From a candidate division Zixibacteria bacterium SM23_81 (GTDB lineage: Bacteria; SM23-81): a stretch of DNA of 6,719 bases. Of this stretch, positions 1 to 6,719 are shown in pieces. Numbering within the stretch: position 1 is the first letter of the stretch; each line of letters begins with the position of its first letter. The notes beneath the pieces were generated by a model. That model did not search any database. It worked only from the letters and a program-made list of their open reading frames with translations, and was not told the DNA's origin. The stretch spans positions 1 through 6,719 of the forward strand of contig LJUY01000086.1 in assembly GCA_001304015.1 (NCBI GenBank), in the 5' to 3' direction. The position numbers and the translations under genes were made by a program.

Positions 1-210
1 TTTGTGGATTTTCTCATTCAAGGCTCCCCGATGATGGGAGAACAGAATGGCCACGTCATCCCCGGTAGAGGATACTCGGTAATCGGTGAAGATATCTCCT
101 CGTTTGGCCTCCAAATACTCCCGGACTTTCTCCATAAGCCGTTGGCTGGGTTTTATATGCCCACCGATGCTGCCGATGTCAGCTTTGATGACGCTGAGGG
201 TAGTTTTCAT
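1..210 (-). CDS. Fructose-1,6-bisphosphate aldolase/phosphatase, N-terminal 70 residues (runs off the left edge)
   Basis: Translating the minus strand from the ATG at 210-208 gives 70 uninterrupted codons to base 1, beginning MKTTLSVIKADIGSIGGH. This matches the start of the archaeal-type (class V) fructose-bisphosphate aldolase/phosphatase, a bifunctional gluconeogenic enzyme. In that family one active site joins dihydroxyacetone phosphate and glyceraldehyde-3-phosphate and then removes the C1 phosphate to give fructose-6-phosphate. Visible family residues are the metal ligands D11 and H18 and the TGDDVA motif with D51-D52, followed by the SHHRG stretch near 58-62. The remainder of the protein (family size is roughly 360-400 residues) lies outside the window. 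The start is fixed by a strong AAGGAG site 8 bases upstream. It follows the glycan operon on the same strand after a gap of 162-185 bp, so it may have its own promoter. The family call is from recognition of the N terminus only. Confidence 0.86.
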   Translation of the reverse strand, partial: MKTTLSVIKADIGSIGGHIKPSQRLMEKVREYLEAKRGDIFTDYRVSSTGDDVAILFSHHRGALNEKIHK

Positions 211-218
211 AGCAAATG

Positions 219-224
219 CTCCTT
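219..224 (-). promoter_or_regulatory. Ribosome binding site of the aldolase/phosphatase gene
   Basis: On the minus strand AAGGAG sits 8 bases before the ATG at 210. It is a near-perfect Shine-Dalgarno sequence and supports that start codon, which is otherwise known only from homology. Confidence 0.8.
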
Positions 225-261
225 CCGGAGACCTCATAGGGGATGAAATCGTTATTTACGA

Positions 262-302
262 GGTCCAAGGACCGTTATAGACGAGCTTCTGAAGCTGCAA
301 CC
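262..302 (-). promoter_or_regulatory. Candidate promoter/operator with two inverted repeats ahead of the aldolase/phosphatase gene
   Basis: Between the operon end and the ATG at 210 the minus strand carries TATAAC (279-274), a five-of-six match to a -10 box. A weak TTGCAG (300-295) lies 15 bases upstream as a possible -35. Two perfect inverted repeats flank the TATAAC: AGCTTC-N-GAAGCT at 284-296 on the upstream side, and GGTCC-AA-GGACC at 262-273 directly abutting the downstream side. That placement would suit a repressor operator or a short 5' hairpin in the transcript. The -35 and its spacing are poor, so the promoter call is tentative; the inverted repeats themselves are certain. Confidence 0.35.
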
Positions 303-329
303 TAAGGACATCGTCTCCGTACTTGAAGT

Positions 330-339
330 AAAAAAAAAA
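330..339 (-). other. Run of ten A (T on the minus strand) after the operon end
   Basis: Ten consecutive A residues on the plus strand are read as ten T on the coding strand, about 35-65 bases after the last stop codon (373 or 396). A T tract in this place suggests transcription termination, but I find no stable GC-rich stem directly before it; the only pairing is a weak CTTGA/TCAAG that encloses the tract. It could equally be a flexible or UP-like element for the downstream gene. Confidence 0.3.
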
Positions 340-372
340 GCACTCGATGTCAAGAAAAATATGGATCAGGAA

Positions 373-438
373 TTACTGCACGTATCCGATAGCCCTCAGC
401 TGCTCCTCGATGAACTTGTTGATGGCTTCGGTTGAGTC
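373..438 (-). other. Displaced C-terminal tail of the lipoprotein phosphodiesterase in another frame
   Basis: Read from 438 in the frame two bases on from the upstream coding frame, the minus strand encodes 21 residues that end EEQLRAIGYVQ followed by TAA at 375-373. Enzymes of this superfamily often end in a charged helix and L-x-(A/S)-x-GY; the sulfatase-fold enzyme at the other end of this window ends ERLKSLGYTE. The distance from the last family-like codon (L480, 488-486) to 438 is 47 bases, so one base is missing (or two are extra). Restoring one base, for instance in the four-G run at 459-462, would give a protein of about 517 residues ending at 373. I cannot tell a genuine mutation from a sequencing or assembly error. 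Confidence 0.68.
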
Positions 439-1925
439 AGACAGCCCGCTGGTCTGTCGGGGTTTGCTGGAGCGTGCGGTGCATCCAGGATCCTTCCGTC
501 CATTTCCTGGGGGATGGGCTCGCCAAGAAGGTATAGAACTGAGGGGGCGATATCGGCGATTTGGGCGTCGAAATTGTTTACCCCCCTCTGGACATTGGCC
601 CCGGTTATAATCAAAACGCCGTTCATCTTGTGATAGGCGGAAAAGAAACGGCTGAAGATCGGATCATCATGTAGAGGAAACAGCCTTCCATCTTCCGTGG
701 GATTCCAGTTCCAGAACAGATAACCCTCGGTCTCCAGACCTAGGAGATCTGGAGCTACGTTTGCGTATGGTCCCCAATAAAGTTCGTCACCCTCGAAGAC
801 CTTGCTGATGACTTTCTGGCCAGTGGCAGGGTCTCGAAGCTGTTCCAGCTTACTTTTTAGCAGCTCTTTGGTCTGAGCATAGGCCTCCCGAGTTTTACTG
901 TCATAAGGGGGATCCTTTTTTGAAGTCAGGTGGAAGCTAGCGCCGAAATGATCAGCGGCCATCACTCGAAAAACATCCCGGGGAACTGCCTGGTCAATGA
1001 AGTTCTGGCCATTTACCAGTTGGTAGACAGGTCCAAAGCCATGATCCGACATCAGCACTAAGGTGGTCTGTGAATCCAGTTTGGGCCGTAGTTTTCCCAC
1101 AACCTGATCCAAACGCTGGTATGTCTCCAGAACAATGTTACTGTAAAGTTGTGCTTTCACAGGATCCCAGTTCGGATGCTTTGGGTCCATAAACTTCCAG
1201 AAATAGTGCTGAACTCGATCAGCAATGGTAAAAACAACGAAGAACAGCTCCCACGATTCTTCCTCCAGCAGCTTGAAGACGACCGTGGCCCGTCGATCCA
1301 TGATGTCATTCATGTCCTCTAGAAAAGCCTCCTCCCCATTAATCTGGACTATTTGCCCGTATATGTCATTTCTATAGTCAGGGATTTTAAACCGATACTC
1401 GGGAGGATAGGTGAAATTGGTCTGGGATGTATGAGGGAACCCCGAGATCATCACGCCTTTCATCCTATCAGGTGGAGAGGAACAGGGCACGTTCATCACC
1501 ACTGATCGTCTTCCCCGCTCGCTCAAAATGACCCAAAGGGGATCGGCCCTGCGGTCCCGGGAGGTATAATAATACAGATCATGAATCAGATCATGATGCT
1601 TGCCCGCGCTGAATTTTAGACCTTTGACAAACCCGAAGATACCGTGTTTACCCGGGTTGACTCCGGTGACAGCCGAGGTCCAGGCGGGCGGTGAGGAGGG
1701 AGGTACGGCACTGATCAGCTGGGTAGAGCTACCCTCTTCCAGCAGCTTGGCGAAGTTGGGGAGCTTTCCTTCTTTGGCCCAGGGCACCAGCAGGTCGAAG
1801 GTGAGCCCGTCGATGCCCAGCACGAAGACCTTTTGTTTGGGCGCCCGAGCGCAGCCGGAACTCAGCAAAACGAGTACAAGTGCAAAGGATATAAACGGAC
1901 TGGATTGAAGCAATTTCTTTTTCAT
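396..1925 (-). CDS. Lipoprotein of the type I phosphodiesterase/nucleotide pyrophosphatase family, C terminus probably frameshifted
   Basis: This is a 509-residue alkaline-phosphatase-superfamily metalloenzyme predicted to act outside the cytoplasmic membrane. Residues 1-25 form a lipoprotein signal: MKKK, a hydrophobic core, then LLSSGC with the lipidated Cys at 25. Candidate metal and active-site residues are D39 (GIDG), S78 at the nucleophile position (VPPSSPPAW), D236 and H240 (ADRVQH), D294-H295 (SDHGFG) and H432. GKHGI (92-96), TGQKV (368-372), GPYANVAPDLL (385-395) and ADIAPSVL (457-464) are shared with the enzyme at 3857-5482. Substrate is unknown; phosphodiesters or phospho-groups on glycans or lipids are plausible. 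I chose ATG 1925 over an in-frame ATG at 1985 because it begins the signal peptide and forms an ATGA overlap with the upstream glycosyltransferase stop. After MDGRIL (residue 480) the sequence becomes Pro/Ser-rich and unlike the family, while the expected tail lies in another frame. Confidence 0.85.
   Translation of the reverse strand: MKKKLLQSSPFISFALVLVLLSSGCARAPKQKVFVLGIDGLTFDLLVPWAKEGKLPNFAKLLEEGSSTQLISAVPPSSPPAWTSAVTGVNPGKHGIFGFVKGLKFSAGKHHDLIHDLYYYTSRDRRADPLWVILSERGRRSVVMNVPCSSPPDRMKGVMISGFPHTSQTNFTYPPEYRFKIPDYRNDIYGQIVQINGEEAFLEDMNDIMDRRATVVFKLLEEESWELFFVVFTIADRVQHYFWKFMDPKHPNWDPVKAQLYSNIVLETYQRLDQVVGKLRPKLDSQTTLVLMSDHGFGPVYQLVNGQNFIDQAVPRDVFRVMAADHFGASFHLTSKKDPPYDSKTREAYAQTKELLKSKLEQLRDPATGQKVISKVFEGDELYWGPYANVAPDLLGLETEGYLFWNWNPTEDGRLFPLHDDPIFSRFFSAYHKMNGVLIITGANVQRGVNNFDAQIADIAPSVLYLLGEPIPQEMDGRILDAPHAPANPDRPAGCLTQPKPSTSSSRSS
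1922..1925 (-). promoter_or_regulatory. ATGA start/stop overlap (translational coupling)
   Basis: The lipoprotein gene's ATG (1925-1923) overlaps the TGA (1924-1922) of the family 4 glycosyltransferase. A GGAG lies just upstream within the end of the glycosyltransferase. The arrangement implies that the same ribosomes translate both genes in sequence. Confidence 0.8.
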
Positions 1926-3109
1926 TTTCTCCAACTCCAACGCTCTAGCGTTTTCTGATAGACCTCTTCGTACCGAGGCACCCACTGGTCCCAGGTGAAC
2001 TCATCCCGGACCGTCTTACGGGCATTTTCAGAGAGCCTGCGCCGCAATCCAAAATCATTCAACAACGACATGATGGCTGTGGCGAATTCGTGGGCATCGT
2101 CGTCTCTTACTACCCAGCCGTTAACGAGATGCTGAATGCTGTTGGCCGAACCTTGACAGATAACCACTGGTTTTCCGGCGGCCAGGTAGTTCAGCAACTT
2201 GATGGGGAAGCCATAGGGCGAGATCCGAGGACAAAGAGCCAAGTCGCACTCCTCCAAGAGCCCCCGCATAACCTGGAAGGATGTTGTTTGGGTGATATGC
2301 ACCCTTTCCCAAAGGCCCATTCTTTCCACCTGGTGCAAGATACGTGTCGGCGAAGAGTTGGTTACCACCTCCAAGAGACAACGGGGATGATGAGTGACTA
2401 CTTCTCTAAGACTTTTCAGAACAAGACCGAAGTTCTGGTAATTATCCAGGTTTCCAGCATACAATAGGCGCGGCACAGCATCTTTCCCCTTTGGGGATGC
2501 CTTCTTCCCACCCACTTCGAACTGATTGGCCTCAATGGCCGGAGGAATGGTCCAAATTCTGTCTGGCGCCACCCCGCGCTTGCGAACGAAAGTGGCAATT
2601 TCCGGCGTAATGGCAATGCAGGCGTCAGTCCTCCAGGGCAATTGATAGTCCAGCAACCGTCCCAACCATCTGGCTATATGGAGACCAAACTTAGTGCGGC
2701 TGTAAGAGGGCAACTCATGGGTCATGGTGTTGTGAGTGTGAAAAACCAGGGGCACCTTTCTCAACCGCCTGATCGCCAAACCCACCAACGCACCCTCGTA
2801 ATTATGCGCATGAATGATGTGAGCCCTCTGCCGCTGGACCACTCTGTTCAGCTGGATGGCCAGAAGCGCGTCGAAAAAGGGTTTCTGAGGAGACGGACCT
2901 GACCCCAACTTGTGGGAGATGGGCAATCGCCACGCCTTGTGTACAGGCCCCTGGAAGGTTAGGTTCTTATCCCCGTAATGATAGGTTACCAGGTGAATCC
3001 GATGCCCCCGCTTGCGCAGGGCTCTGGCCAGTTGACCGATGAACACCTGCGTTCCCTGCGAAGCAGGAAAAGGGCAGGGAGCCACCATGGCGATGCGCAA
3101 GCTCTGCAT
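1922..3109 (-). CDS. Family 4 glycosyltransferase (GT-B fold)
   Basis: This 395-residue enzyme should transfer a sugar from a nucleotide-sugar donor to a growing glycan at the cytoplasmic face of the membrane. The N-terminal domain has the GT4 acceptor-side pattern (MVAPCPFPASQGTQVFIGQL, 8-27), then HAHNYEG (100-106) and PLVFHTHN (120-127). The linker region DACIAITPEIATFVRKRGV (162-180) leads to IPPAIE. The C-terminal donor domain begins RLLYAGNLDNYQNF (214-227) and includes CPRISPYGFPIKLLNYLAAG (293-312). The usual E-x7-E donor motif is replaced by Y299-x7-N307, although the surrounding GFP-KLL-Y-AAGKPVV frame is intact. There is no signal peptide or obvious membrane segment. Length is normal for the family. 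The start ATG lies 23 bases after the GT2 stop with only a weak Shine-Dalgarno (GGATAAG). Sugar specificity cannot be read from the sequence. Confidence 0.92.
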   Translation of the reverse strand: MQSLRIAMVAPCPFPASQGTQVFIGQLARALRKRGHRIHLVTYHYGDKNLTFQGPVHKAWRLPISHKLGSGPSPQKPFFDALLAIQLNRVVQRQRAHIIHAHNYEGALVGLAIRRLRKVPLVFHTHNTMTHELPSYSRTKFGLHIARWLGRLLDYQLPWRTDACIAITPEIATFVRKRGVAPDRIWTIPPAIEANQFEVGGKKASPKGKDAVPRLLYAGNLDNYQNFGLVLKSLREVVTHHPRCLLEVVTNSSPTRILHQVERMGLWERVHITQTTSFQVMRGLLEECDLALCPRISPYGFPIKLLNYLAAGKPVVICQGSANSIQHLVNGWVVRDDDAHEFATAIMSLLNDFGLRRRLSENARKTVRDEFTWDQWVPRYEEVYQKTLERWSWRK

Positions 3110-3132
3110 GATTCTTATCCAGATCCAATACC

Positions 3133-3882
3133 TCAGCCTTTCAGATTGGCGTAGAGCTTGGCCAGATCCAAAAAGGCGCGGTAGATGGTCTTCAGTCGAG
3201 CCCCGGATTGTCGACCCCGCTTTCGCGGGTAATGGGTCACCGGAACCTGCTTTACGGTGAATCCATGTTTTTGAGCCAGAATCAGGATTTCGCTGTAAGC
3301 CATTGCCCCCTGGGAGCGAATGGAGATTTGTTCGAAAACTCGCCTGTTGAAAAGCTTAAACGCGCAGTTGACGTCTCGCACTCGAAGGCCGAAGAGCCCC
3401 CTTATCAACACTCCCCAACACCAGGCGTTAAACCTGCGCCCCAGATGCTCCTGGCGCCTTTTCCGATACCCTATCACGATATCGAACCGGTTTGTCCAGG
3501 GGAGCAGCGTCAGCAGCTCACCGGGGTCAAACTGCAGGTCTGCATCCATCATGAAAAGCAATTGGTGACGGGCCAGATTGATGCCCGTCTTCAAGGCGGC
3601 ACCATACCCTCGATTTTCGGGATGGCTGGCAAGTTTGACTTGAGTTTTATCCCGGGATAGCTCTTTGACCAGCTTTATCGTATCGTCACGGCTCCCGTCG
3701 TCTACCACCACAATTTCCCACGCTGGGGCAATGTCCGAAAGAACCATCGCCAGTGCTTCGACGGCTGGGATAATATTCTCCACCTCGTTGTAGGCTGGTA
3801 GAATGGCAGAGATGGTGGCGGCGGATGTCCGGCGGCCCGGCGCAGTTTTTTTATCTCTAGGTGCCGAAATGTGTGGTGGCAT
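3133..3882 (-). CDS. Family 2 glycosyltransferase, DPM1/polyprenyl-phosphate sugar synthase type
   Basis: This is a 249-residue GT-A glycosyltransferase. The core motifs are LPAYNE (28-33), VVVDDGS (58-64), HPENRGYGAALKTG (87-100), the donor/metal motif DADLQ (113-117) and RDVNCAFKLF (169-178). The overall pattern resembles dolichyl- and undecaprenyl-phosphate mannose or glucose synthases, which load a sugar onto a polyprenyl phosphate. No C-terminal transmembrane helices are present, so it is the short, peripheral form like DPM1; the end is basic (HYPRKRGRQSG, then a helix), consistent with membrane contact. I chose the ATG at 3882 over an in-frame ATG 11 codons upstream at 3915 because CAGGAG lies 6 bases before it. 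The gene overlaps the end of the phosphodiesterase-like gene by 26 bases. The product could instead be a general glycan-assembly GT2; the exact sugar is unknown. Confidence 0.9.
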   Translation of the reverse strand: MPPHISAPRDKKTAPGRRTSAATISAILPAYNEVENIIPAVEALAMVLSDIAPAWEIVVVDDGSRDDTIKLVKELSRDKTQVKLASHPENRGYGAALKTGINLARHQLLFMMDADLQFDPGELLTLLPWTNRFDIVIGYRKRRQEHLGRRFNAWCWGVLIRGLFGLRVRDVNCAFKLFNRRVFEQISIRSQGAMAYSEILILAQKHGFTVKQVPVTHYPRKRGRQSGARLKTIYRAFLDLAKLYANLKG

Positions 3883-5482
3883 TCGATACTCCTGAGCCCA
3901 GTTTGTTCTCGGCAATCTCCAAAATCACTCGTCCGTCCATATTAGGGGGCACCGGCAGGCCTAGGAACGCCAGGATAGTTGGTGCCATGTCCATGATGGA
4001 GAGGTCACTCAATCGTCCTTTCCTGGGTCTTTGGCCATGGGCAAACAGGAAAATGCCCTGCCGCCGATGGCTGCCGTTCATGCTTTGCCCCTTGGCTCCA
4101 GCCCGCTCGTTCGCTTTCAAGACACGCATGGGTATCCTCCCTCGACGTCCACAACTGGAGAGGCATGTATAGGTGTAGCCGTTATCCAGACCCAGTTCCA
4201 GCACGAGATCGGGAGCCTGGTTCATGTAAGGCCCATGATAGAGCTCCTCCCGTCGGTAAGCTCGGCCCACCACCTTCTGACCCGTTTCCGGGTTTAAAAA
4301 ACGGGGCAGGGCGCCGATGAGCTCCTCTCGCAGCGTCTCGTATTCTATACCCGGTGCCACGATGCCATTGGGCTCTCTCCCTCGAAGATTAATCCAGATG
4401 GCTGGAAGTGTGTTCATCTCCGTTGAGAAGGCCCTGGTTCGACCCCAGTCAATAGCTCCTATCTGGGTTTGGGAAAGGAGAGCGTTGGCTGCCCGAGCTC
4501 CCTTTCGAAGAAGGCTCTCTTGAAGCCTGAGAGGTAAGAATTTCACACTGGCTGCCCGAAGTGCAGACGCTCCCCAGACGCCAGCCTGTGCGCCCCGACG
4601 AAACTTTAAAAAGCCATCCCTTTCGAGCCAACGATTCAGGTACACCACCTTATCGCCGGCACCCCCGAAGCCGTGGTCGGAGAGGAGCATGACTGCCATT
4701 CCAGGGTGAACCTGGGAGATGAGTTGACCAACGATGGTATCCAGCCGCTGATAAATGGAGAGAATGGCCTCCTCAAATTCCTGCTTAAATTTCCTGGGGC
4801 GTCGTGGAGAATCGGGGTCGTGAAACATCCAGAAATGATGGCAGACCGTGTCTGATTCCCCGAAGAGGACCATGAAACAGTCCCAGGGTTCCTTGTCAAG
4901 CAGATAAGCAGCGATGGCCGCTTTATGCTGCAGAGTCTCCCGAATTTTTTTCAAGGCCTTTTCATGCCACCTTTTTCCCATTCGGAACTGCTGAAAATCG
5001 GTGATCTTGTACGGGCCAACTCGCTCCTTGATCTCACCAAACAGGGATCGTGGATAGATGAAAGAAGGGTCAGTTCCGGTGGAAACGGGGGAATCGAAGC
5101 CGCTGATCATGAAGCCATTTACGGGCTCGGGCGGGTAGGTAGTGGGAAGAGCCATAACACCCACTCGCTTGCCACCGTCGCTGAGGAGTTTCCAAAGGGT
5201 GGGGCTTTTTCGGGAACGGGCGCTAACGAACTCGAGATGGTAATGCCCGGGTACACGTCTGGTGAAATCGTAGATACCGTGTTTACCCGAGTTCATGCCC
5301 GTCATGAAGGAGGACCAGGCGGGAAAAGTCATGGGGGGAATTGTTGATTCCAGGTTTGCGCGTAGGCCTTGTTTCATGAGAGCGGATATGTGAGGGAGTT
5401 TCCCCTGAGCGCTCCACGGATCGATGAGGTCAAAGGTGGCGCCATCTAAGGCGATGATCAACAATCTGCGTGTGCCTTCCAT
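3857..5482 (-). CDS. Cytoplasmic type I phosphodiesterase/nucleotide pyrophosphatase-like enzyme (alkaline phosphatase superfamily)
   Basis: This is a 541-residue homologue of the lipoprotein encoded at 396-1925, but with no signal peptide: the catalytic domain begins at residue 6 (RLLIIALDGATFDLI). Candidate two-metal-site residues are D13, the nucleophile T52 (IPPMTFPAW), D211 and H215 (GESDTVCHH), D269-H270 (LLSDHGFGG) and H472 (NGSHRRQG). GKHGIYDF (67-73) and GPYMNQAPDLVLEL (417-430) match the paralogue, and MDMAPTILAFLGL (497-509) with MDGRVI marks the end of the domain. A family nucleotide pyrophosphatase would have Asn two residues after the Thr-Phe/Pro step; here it is Ala (PAW), so the substrate probably differs from classical NPP substrates. 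The start is secure: an in-frame stop lies just upstream, with AGGTGG 12 bases before the ATG. It is 16 bp after the sulfatase-fold gene and overlaps the GT2 gene. Likely role (inference): processing a phosphorylated glycan or lipid-linked intermediate inside the cell. Confidence 0.87.
   Translation of the reverse strand: MEGTRRLLIIALDGATFDLIDPWSAQGKLPHISALMKQGLRANLESTIPPMTFPAWSSFMTGMNSGKHGIYDFTRRVPGHYHLEFVSARSRKSPTLWKLLSDGGKRVGVMALPTTYPPEPVNGFMISGFDSPVSTGTDPSFIYPRSLFGEIKERVGPYKITDFQQFRMGKRWHEKALKKIRETLQHKAAIAAYLLDKEPWDCFMVLFGESDTVCHHFWMFHDPDSPRRPRKFKQEFEEAILSIYQRLDTIVGQLISQVHPGMAVMLLSDHGFGGAGDKVVYLNRWLERDGFLKFRRGAQAGVWGASALRAASVKFLPLRLQESLLRKGARAANALLSQTQIGAIDWGRTRAFSTEMNTLPAIWINLRGREPNGIVAPGIEYETLREELIGALPRFLNPETGQKVVGRAYRREELYHGPYMNQAPDLVLELGLDNGYTYTCLSSCGRRGRIPMRVLKANERAGAKGQSMNGSHRRQGIFLFAHGQRPRKGRLSDLSIMDMAPTILAFLGLPVPPNMDGRVILEIAENKLGSGVSNATTHFGT
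3889..3894 (-). promoter_or_regulatory. Ribosome binding site that sets the GT2 start
   Basis: CAGGAG on the minus strand lies 6 bases before the ATG at 3882 and inside the final codons of the upstream gene. It favours that start over the in-frame ATG at 3915, which would lie deeper inside the upstream gene. Confidence 0.72.
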
Positions 5483-5498
5483 GAAGGCCTATCACCAC

Positions 5499-6719
5499 CT
5501 ACTCGGTGTATCCCAAGGACTTCAACCTCTCCTGAGTGGCCTCGTCTATCTCCCTTTCCTGGCGGGCGACCGCTCCACCTTGAGCCAGGGCCAATTTTTC
5601 TTCCAAGCGGGGTTGCATCACATCAACCAGCTCTGATTGCTCCTGGGCCAGGTTATTTTTCTCCCAGGGATCCTCCGTCAAGTTGAACACAGCCACGGGA
5701 GGAAGACCCCTGGGGTTATTGGGATTGGCCTGGATCAGCTTAAAATTCCGGGTGCGCAAAGAGAGGACCACATTACCCTCGTGGTCCTCTTCGGAGAAGA
5801 CATCCTCCACGCCGGTCCATGATTTGCCCTCGGTTCCTAAAAAGCTTTGTCCCTGCATTGAGGGGTGAGAAGAGATGTCCGTCAGGGCCAGGATAGTGGG
5901 AGCGATGTCCAGAGTGCGAACTACCCGCTGGTCCACGGTGCCGGCCTCCTTCTGGCCAGGTAACTTGACGACCAGGGGTACATGTATTTGTTCCTCATAC
6001 AGTGTAGTGCCGTGCCACCAACCACCGTGCTCATAGAATTCCTGACCATGGTCCGAGGTTAAAACAATGAGAGCGTCCTGGTACAGGCCATGGTCTTTAA
6101 GCCAGCGCCACAGCTCTCCAAGCGCCTGATCCACAAATCGCAATTCGCCGTCGTAGGTGTCGCTGAACAATCCTGCCACACTTGGATTTGGATTTGGGTT
6201 GCTCACTCGAGCGTAGCCCACGTTATTGTAAGGATGCACGAAGTAAGGATCATGGGTCTCCATGTAGTGGACAAACAAAAAGAAGCGACTGTTCTGCACT
6301 TTCTCCAACCAGGATAGGACGTTCTTGTTGACCACCTGTGCATCTTGGTAGTAGTGATAAACGTGCTTGGCTTTCGAGAAGAAGCGCTCCCGTATCAGAC
6401 GGAGTTGATTGTACCCGGCGAGCTGAAAGCCGGACTCCGGCGACTTGAAGAAATAATGGGGTTTGAGAAAGATGTACTGGTCGAATCCCTGGCCGAAATT
6501 GAAGATGGGGGCGATATTGACGTTATTGGCAAATCCCAGTGCGAAATATCCCCCCGCCGTCATCAGCTCAGCCAAGGAGACCACCGGCTCAGGAAGCATA
6601 TCTGGCTTAAAGATGGCCTGATGAGAGGAAGGGTAGAGGGCGGTGAACAGGGTGGCGGTGGAGGGGCGGGTCCAGGAGGATTGGGTTATGCAGGTTTCGA
6701 AGCGGATGGCATCGGCGGC
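5499..6719 (-). CDS. Sulfatase-fold enzyme with Thr at the nucleophile position, N terminus outside the window
   Basis: The open frame continues to the right edge without a start, giving 406 residues of a sulfatase-family (alkaline phosphatase superfamily) hydrolase or transferase; an internal ATG at 6599 is not the real start. The fragment opens inside the active-site segment: SSWTRPSTATLFTALYPSSH occupies residues 14-33, where true sulfatases have C/S-x-P-x-R. Here the aligned residues are T17, P19 and T21, so neither the formylglycine Cys/Ser nor the Arg is present. Other signatures are FVHYMETHDPYFVHPYN (149-165), LTSDHGQEFYEHGGWWHG (220-237) with D223-H224 and H236, and TLDIAPTILAL (269-279). 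The C-terminal substrate region includes RTRNFKLI and FNLTEDPWEKNNLAQ (345-359). It ends ERLKSLGYTE. The missing N terminus (perhaps 50-150 residues) would carry the first metal-binding Asp and any export signal, so location cannot be judged. It is the first gene of the cluster seen here. Confidence 0.88.
   Translation of the reverse strand, partial: AADAIRFETCITQSSWTRPSTATLFTALYPSSHQAIFKPDMLPEPVVSLAELMTAGGYFALGFANNVNIAPIFNFGQGFDQYIFLKPHYFFKSPESGFQLAGYNQLRLIRERFFSKAKHVYHYYQDAQVVNKNVLSWLEKVQNSRFFLFVHYMETHDPYFVHPYNNVGYARVSNPNPNPSVAGLFSDTYDGELRFVDQALGELWRWLKDHGLYQDALIVLTSDHGQEFYEHGGWWHGTTLYEEQIHVPLVVKLPGQKEAGTVDQRVVRTLDIAPTILALTDISSHPSMQGQSFLGTEGKSWTGVEDVFSEEDHEGNVVLSLRTRNFKLIQANPNNPRGLPPVAVFNLTEDPWEKNNLAQEQSELVDVMQPRLEEKLALAQGGAVARQEREIDEATQERLKSLGYTE

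Follow-up and report, generated by a model that had tools for sequence, protein, structure and literature searches.

The window analysed here, the entire 6,719-base contig C61 of the 3.07 Mb draft genome of candidate division Zixibacteria bacterium SM23_81, may hold the later genes of a conserved operon by which a glycoconjugate of the envelope is assembled on a lipid carrier, with phosphodiester chemistry both inside and outside the membrane, a reading to which we assign a probability of about 0.45. The core of the system is co-inherited and consists of a cytosolic enzyme with the nucleotide pyrophosphatase/phosphodiesterase (NPP) fold, a glycosyltransferase of family 4 (GT4) and a sulfatase-fold protein that is often fused to a PF03706 domain. 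A glycosyltransferase of family 2 (GT2), a lipoprotein and the remaining genes are lineage-specific additions to this core. Gene content, gene order, predicted locations, catalytic residues and co-inheritance are the basis of the pathway reading.

The five genes of interest all lie on the minus strand. In transcription order they encode the catalytic part of the sulfatase-fold protein (5499–6719; PF00884, 5.7e-36; SGSH_C region PF16347, 1.8e-16), with its 5′ end cut by the contig end; the cytosolic NPP-fold enzyme of 541 aa (3857–5482; PF01663, 7.9e-43); a GT2 of the DPM1 or polyprenyl-phosphate sugar transferase type, 249 aa from its ATG (3133–3882; PF00535, 5.9e-29); the GT4 (1922–3109; PF13439 and PF00534); and an NPP-fold lipoprotein (396–1925; PF01663, 2.7e-43). 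The successive junctions are a 16 bp gap, a 26 bp overlap, a 23 bp gap and a 4 bp overlap. Gene calls and Pfam searches thus bear out the five genes, and the junctions ranging from a 26 bp overlap to a 23 bp gap, that had been proposed in an earlier prediction made from the DNA letters alone (hereafter the original prediction). Because the best Pfam E-value per gene ranges from 8.6e-25 to 2.7e-43, these assignments are not due to chance. Promoter and terminator scans gave no more than was found in shuffled sequences.

Co-inheritance was assessed across 386 genomes, each searched with each protein. The clade of the cytosolic enzyme was carried by 13 genomes, the GT4 subfamily by 13 and the sulfatase-fold subfamily by 11. 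The GT4 subfamily was present in 11 of the 13 enzyme carriers vs 2 of the 373 other genomes (Fisher p 9.8e-18), and the sulfatase-fold subfamily, taken at E-values up to 1e-80, in 11 of 13 vs none of 373 (p 1.3e-19). The latter cut was placed at a visible gap after the data had been seen; at 1e-60 the counts were 11/13 vs 5/373. With one genome per family among the carriers the values were 1.9e-13 (GT4) and 2.2e-17 (sulfatase-fold), the Fisher test correcting only partly for shared ancestry. Carriers of the co-occurring core genes span about ten families, and in most of the carrier genomes two or more core genes stand side by side. On unbroken contigs of two unrelated genomes (L091, L097), a second cytosolic NPP-fold enzyme (AP563) is followed directly by the PF03706-sulfatase fusion and then by the cytosolic enzyme; a third genome (L092) holds a lipoprotein NPP enzyme, the sulfatase-fold gene and the cytosolic enzyme together.

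The association extends to glycosyltransferases more generally, with 30 GT4 and 20 GT2 genes in 65 regions around NPP-fold genes (1030 kb), compared with one of each in 442 kb of control regions drawn from many of those genomes. A GT4 of one kind lies close by on the same strand for 9 of the 13 members of the cytosolic enzyme clade. These nine GT4s form a single clade (support 100/98), and their pairings match the enzyme tree; the GT4 is elsewhere in the genome in G222 and G094 and at a contig end in G060, where no exact end overlap was found between contigs C287 and C198. The co-occurrence of the three core genes far beyond chance supports a dedicated pathway, as the original prediction had proposed, and the random association of alkaline phosphatase (AP)-fold genes with glycosyltransferases that it named as its own refutation is not what the neighbourhoods contain. 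A five-gene order conserved across genomes, which it also anticipated, is rejected: the lipoprotein is missing from the closest relative, described below, and the GT2 stands beside the enzyme only there and in the window's genome.

Since the window is a whole contig, the operon is incomplete within it, and synteny places at least four further coding parts ahead of these genes, on contig C83. The comparison is with a sister genome of the same family (deposited as Ca. Zixiibacteriota CSMAG_1598), whose cytosolic enzyme is 76% identical to that of the window and in which the cytosolic enzyme, GT2 and GT4 keep the window's order. Two sister contigs, C201 at its end and C121 at its start, overlap in the last part of the sulfatase-fold gene, over 264 bp with 97% identity. 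Upstream, C201 carries a lipoprotein PF01663 enzyme of the twin-arginine translocation (Tat) type, AP563, and a 1098-aa protein that joins a PF03706 membrane region, further transmembrane (TM) segments and a sulfatase domain, and that is 77% identical to the window's sulfatase-fold protein. The right end of C83 has the same genes, namely the Tat-type lipoprotein NPP-fold enzyme, the second cytosolic NPP-fold enzyme, a PF03706 flippase-like protein and the membrane half of the sulfatase-fold gene, stopping inside the membrane part. The window starts at residue 693 of the sister fusion protein, so that about 0.25 kb is missing between C83 and C61; no exact end overlap was found between these two contigs. 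The sulfatase-fold gene is therefore incomplete in the window, and other genes of the operon precede it. The PF03706 and membrane-sulfatase parts are separate, overlapping open reading frames in the window's genome (L011:16561-18790) and one fusion in the sister (L043:10-3306). The C83 tail also maps twice onto one TM region of the sister protein, and this TM block looks duplicated. A search of the window's genome for 16S found none.

In a tree of 107 NPP-fold proteins the cytosolic enzyme belongs to a clade of 13 members (support 100), and no signal peptide or TM segment was found in it. The metal ligands D13, D211, H215, D269, H270 and H472 do not vary across 20 aligned proteins, all of which have Thr or Ser at position 52; in the window's protein the predicted nucleophile is Thr52 (codon 5327–5329), giving the two-metal site and Ser/Thr nucleophile of the NPP family. 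A predicted structure (pLDDT 82, pTM 0.87) had NPP enzymes as its top structural matches, at Z about 26-27, with ENPP7, Xac NPP, ENPP3 and the phosphatase PafA all within about one Z unit. The enzyme thus shares the fold, the six metal ligands and the nucleophile with NPP/ENPP proteins (Xac NPP, ENPP1, ENPP6, ENPP7), but differs from them in being cytosolic and in its identity of 14-19% in structural alignments. Furthermore, the Asn that lies 21 residues beyond the nucleophile in NPPs (N277 of ENPP1) aligns with Phe73, and Phe occupies this position in nearly all relatives. Because of this replacement of an active-site Asn, we regard the protein as NPP-fold but not a standard NPP.

The sulfatase-fold protein departs from sulfatases at its active site. 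In the window the formylglycine site C-x-P-x-R reads T-R-P-S-T, with Thr at the nucleophile position (codon 6669–6671) and the Arg lost, compared with C-A-P-A-R in a true sulfatase in the same alignment. All twelve sequences of this sulfatase-fold type have Thr here; the Arg that should follow is lost, and His mostly stands in place of the usual Lys. The overall domain and SGSH_C region are those of formylglycine (S1) sulfatases, with neither the Cys or Ser of their C/S-x-P-x-R maturation site nor the following Arg, and with the Lys changed to His. As Thr replaces the formylglycine Cys, phosphoryl transfer or hydrolysis is likelier than desulfation. The EptA/MCR phosphoethanolamine transferases, LtaS and YejM have a similar plan, with a membrane N-terminus, an exported domain of the same superfamily and a Thr nucleophile; for the window's type of protein, TM segments were found in the sister and on C83. 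It differs from these enzymes in being closer in sequence to sulfatases and in being fused or linked to a PF03706 domain, and it reaches only 18–29 bits against EptA/LtaS-type profiles with cut-offs of 500 or more. The PF03706 gene on C83 scores 52.2 bits against a curated cut-off of 33.4. This is its sole Pfam match; it resembles MprF and AglD-type membrane proteins in this region, but lacks the soluble lysyl-transferase domain of MprF and is, in the sister and in other genomes, fused to the sulfatase-fold domain.

With respect to the glycosyltransferases, no TM segment was found in either. The GT2 combines a PF00535 GT-A domain with a DADLQ motif that supplies the DxD signature, and its best NCBIfam matches are PgfS, ArnC and PpgS. 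It is therefore of the DPM1/ArnC/PgfS polyprenyl-phosphate type, but differs from these in having no TM region and in scoring far below the cut-off of every named equivalog (PgfS, ArnC, PpgS, AglJ). A similar GT2 adjoins another NPP-fold enzyme in G101 and G367.

On the lipid-carrier reading, the GT2 and GT4 would act at the cytosolic face to assemble a polyprenyl-linked sugar, and the cytosolic NPP-fold enzyme, through its two-metal site and Thr nucleophile, would cleave or transfer a phosphodiester on the lipid-linked intermediate or on a nucleotide donor. The PF03706 membrane part may then move or present the product across the inner membrane, where the periplasmic sulfatase-fold domain could add or remove a phospho group with its Thr nucleophile, in the manner of EptA- or LtaS-type enzymes. 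Trimming or recycling outside would fall to the lipoprotein NPP-fold enzymes. The type of the GT2, the predicted locations and the presence of a PF03706 gene would accord with a lipid carrier and with chemistry on both faces, as originally proposed. A cytosolic and an exported NPP-like protein acting as a pair on the same kind of bond is not supported, as the two are not close kin in the NPP-fold tree and do not travel together. Assembly of glycosylphosphatidylinositol (GPI) anchors pairs a lipid-phosphate-sugar synthase with an exported AP-superfamily phosphotransferase (DPM1 with the phosphoethanolamine transferases PIG-N and PIG-O). The resemblance is at most a distant analogy of function, and no GT-C or other GPI enzyme was seen.

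Several points weigh against this reading. We infer the substrates, the direction of the reactions and the flippase role of the PF03706 protein, and PF03706 proteins in general are not proven flippases. In profile searches the sulfatase-fold domain comes out closest to sulfatases and a phosphonate monoester hydrolase, rather than to EptA or LtaS. As the GT2 adjoins the cytosolic enzyme in two genomes only, the lipid-phosphate-sugar step lies outside the conserved core, and nothing in the operon was identified as a ligase, polymerase or GT-C able to use a lipid-phosphate-sugar. Lastly, within the window's own genome C83 and the window are linked by synteny only, across the unassembled 0.25 kb.

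Among the alternatives, we consider it unlikely that the NPP-fold enzymes form a sulfation system acting on 3′-phosphoadenosine 5′-phosphosulfate (PAPS), adenosine 5′-phosphosulfate (APS) or sulfated sugars. Related NPP-fold subfamilies do adjoin ATP sulfurylase and APS kinase, which would feed such a system, and the order Sat, APcys2, CysC, APcys1 recurs in a number of unrelated genomes, with APcys2, CysC and APcys1 present on an Omnitrophota contig. Two unrelated genomes have this block, accompanied by a PHP-domain gene and two more NPP-fold genes, contiguous with the core block, and the CysC-linked subfamily APcys2, found in 36 of the 386 genomes, occurs in 9 of the 13 core-bearing genomes vs 27 of the 373 others; however, Sat and CysC are on a different contig in the window's genome, and in most core-bearing genomes no CysC was seen beside the enzyme. 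In the AP superfamily, moreover, a Ser/Thr nucleophile suits phosphoryl rather than sulfuryl transfer. Neither PAPS reductase nor members of two sulfotransferase families were found in several of the block-bearing genomes, but those two were the only sulfotransferase families searched, and PF13469 proteins are present in the window's genome, one of them about 17 kb from the cassette on contig C9. The block is a lead for sulfation in which the window's genes may, conjecturally, take part. It would be a distinctly speculative step, and one we hold to be quite improbable, to see the cytosolic NPP-fold enzymes here and beside Sat, CysC and PHP-domain genes as the missing consumers of PAPS or APS where PAPS reductase and the common sulfotransferases are lacking, a new AP-superfamily class through which the assembly of lipid-linked glycans would be coupled to activated sulfate or to its nucleotide.

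A role for the cytosolic enzymes as sugar-phosphate phosphomutases or phosphatases, supplying sugar-1-phosphates for glycosyltransferase donors, seems to us improbable. Phosphoglycerate mutase and phosphopentomutase are related to them in fold, the phosphomonoesterases PafA and SPAP match structurally almost as well as NPPs, and the family, COG3379, is annotated elsewhere as ‘phosphohydrolase or phosphomutase’, which we count in favour of this possibility. Mutase structures were not among the structural matches listed, an absence with which a mutase is still compatible. A plain housekeeping mutase, however, would leave unexplained why the gene is so closely tied to a single GT4 clade and to a periplasmic enzyme. 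A neutral grouping of unconnected envelope genes within a single lineage, which would suit a GT2 and a lipoprotein that are not conserved partners, is very improbable overall and is contradicted for the core by its co-occurrence and adjacency across about ten families. That the sulfatase-fold gene encodes a true formylglycine sulfatase is scarcely credible: its profile matches to sulfatases notwithstanding, such a function for 5499–6719 is rejected on the active site (Thr, no Arg, Lys to His).

In the open-access literature (full text, with subscription papers not covered), no description was found either for this gene combination or for COG3379; the original prediction, too, had not recognised the combination as a described system. 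The parts are known folds; their combination is conserved and apparently undescribed. Many uncultured bacteria have cytosolic AP-superfamily members in abundance, with hardly any role assigned to them. The link between one such subfamily, a single GT4 clade and a single Thr-type sulfatase-fold enzyme with PF03706 attached or nearby makes of an ‘alkaline phosphatase family protein’ a step in envelope-glycan assembly that can be tested, and suggests that many ‘sulfatase’ annotations in such clusters do not denote sulfatases.

The accessory lipoprotein has a lipoprotein-type signal (LVLLSSGC), one TM-like stretch and Ser at the nucleophile position. It has no counterpart in the sister genome, where its best match is 33%, and a phmmer search of the PDB returned chance matches only. 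Downstream of it, and outside the system, the window holds the start of fbp (1–210, minus strand), which encodes a class V fructose-1,6-bisphosphatase with an N-terminus nearly identical to that of the sister's fbp. The latter, which matches FBPase_3 at 6.4e-161, is inverted and directly follows the GT4. The gene is thus directly downstream in both genomes in opposite orientation (window 1–395; L042:3828-5057), so that a rearrangement must have taken place at the very site where the two genomes differ in having the lipoprotein gene.

Some further observations concern the sulfate-activation genes. The block of Sat, NPP-fold, CysC and NPP-fold genes was seen on the window genome's own contig C9 (L009:14360-19586 and L010:864-2015) and in L050, L052, L053, L064, L091, L097 and L116, sometimes followed by two large NPP-fold genes (about 650–715 aa). 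PHP-domain genes stand beside activated-sulfate and NPP-fold genes at L091:16270-17160, L097:3764-4651 and L070:10761-11633, and recycling of 3′-phosphoadenosine 5′-phosphate (pAp) is a possible role for their products. In the third of these, a Euryarchaeota contig, the PHP-domain gene adjoins CysN- and CysD-like genes and a short NPP-fold gene; the CysD-like protein (L070:6490-8613) has an apparent intein-like insert in its PP-loop and resumes at HNSTTLLWLA. Near the C9 block (L009:6822-13309) lie two condensation-domain genes resembling those of nonribosomal peptide synthetases and a phosphopantetheinyl-transferase-like gene, judged from N-terminal sequence.

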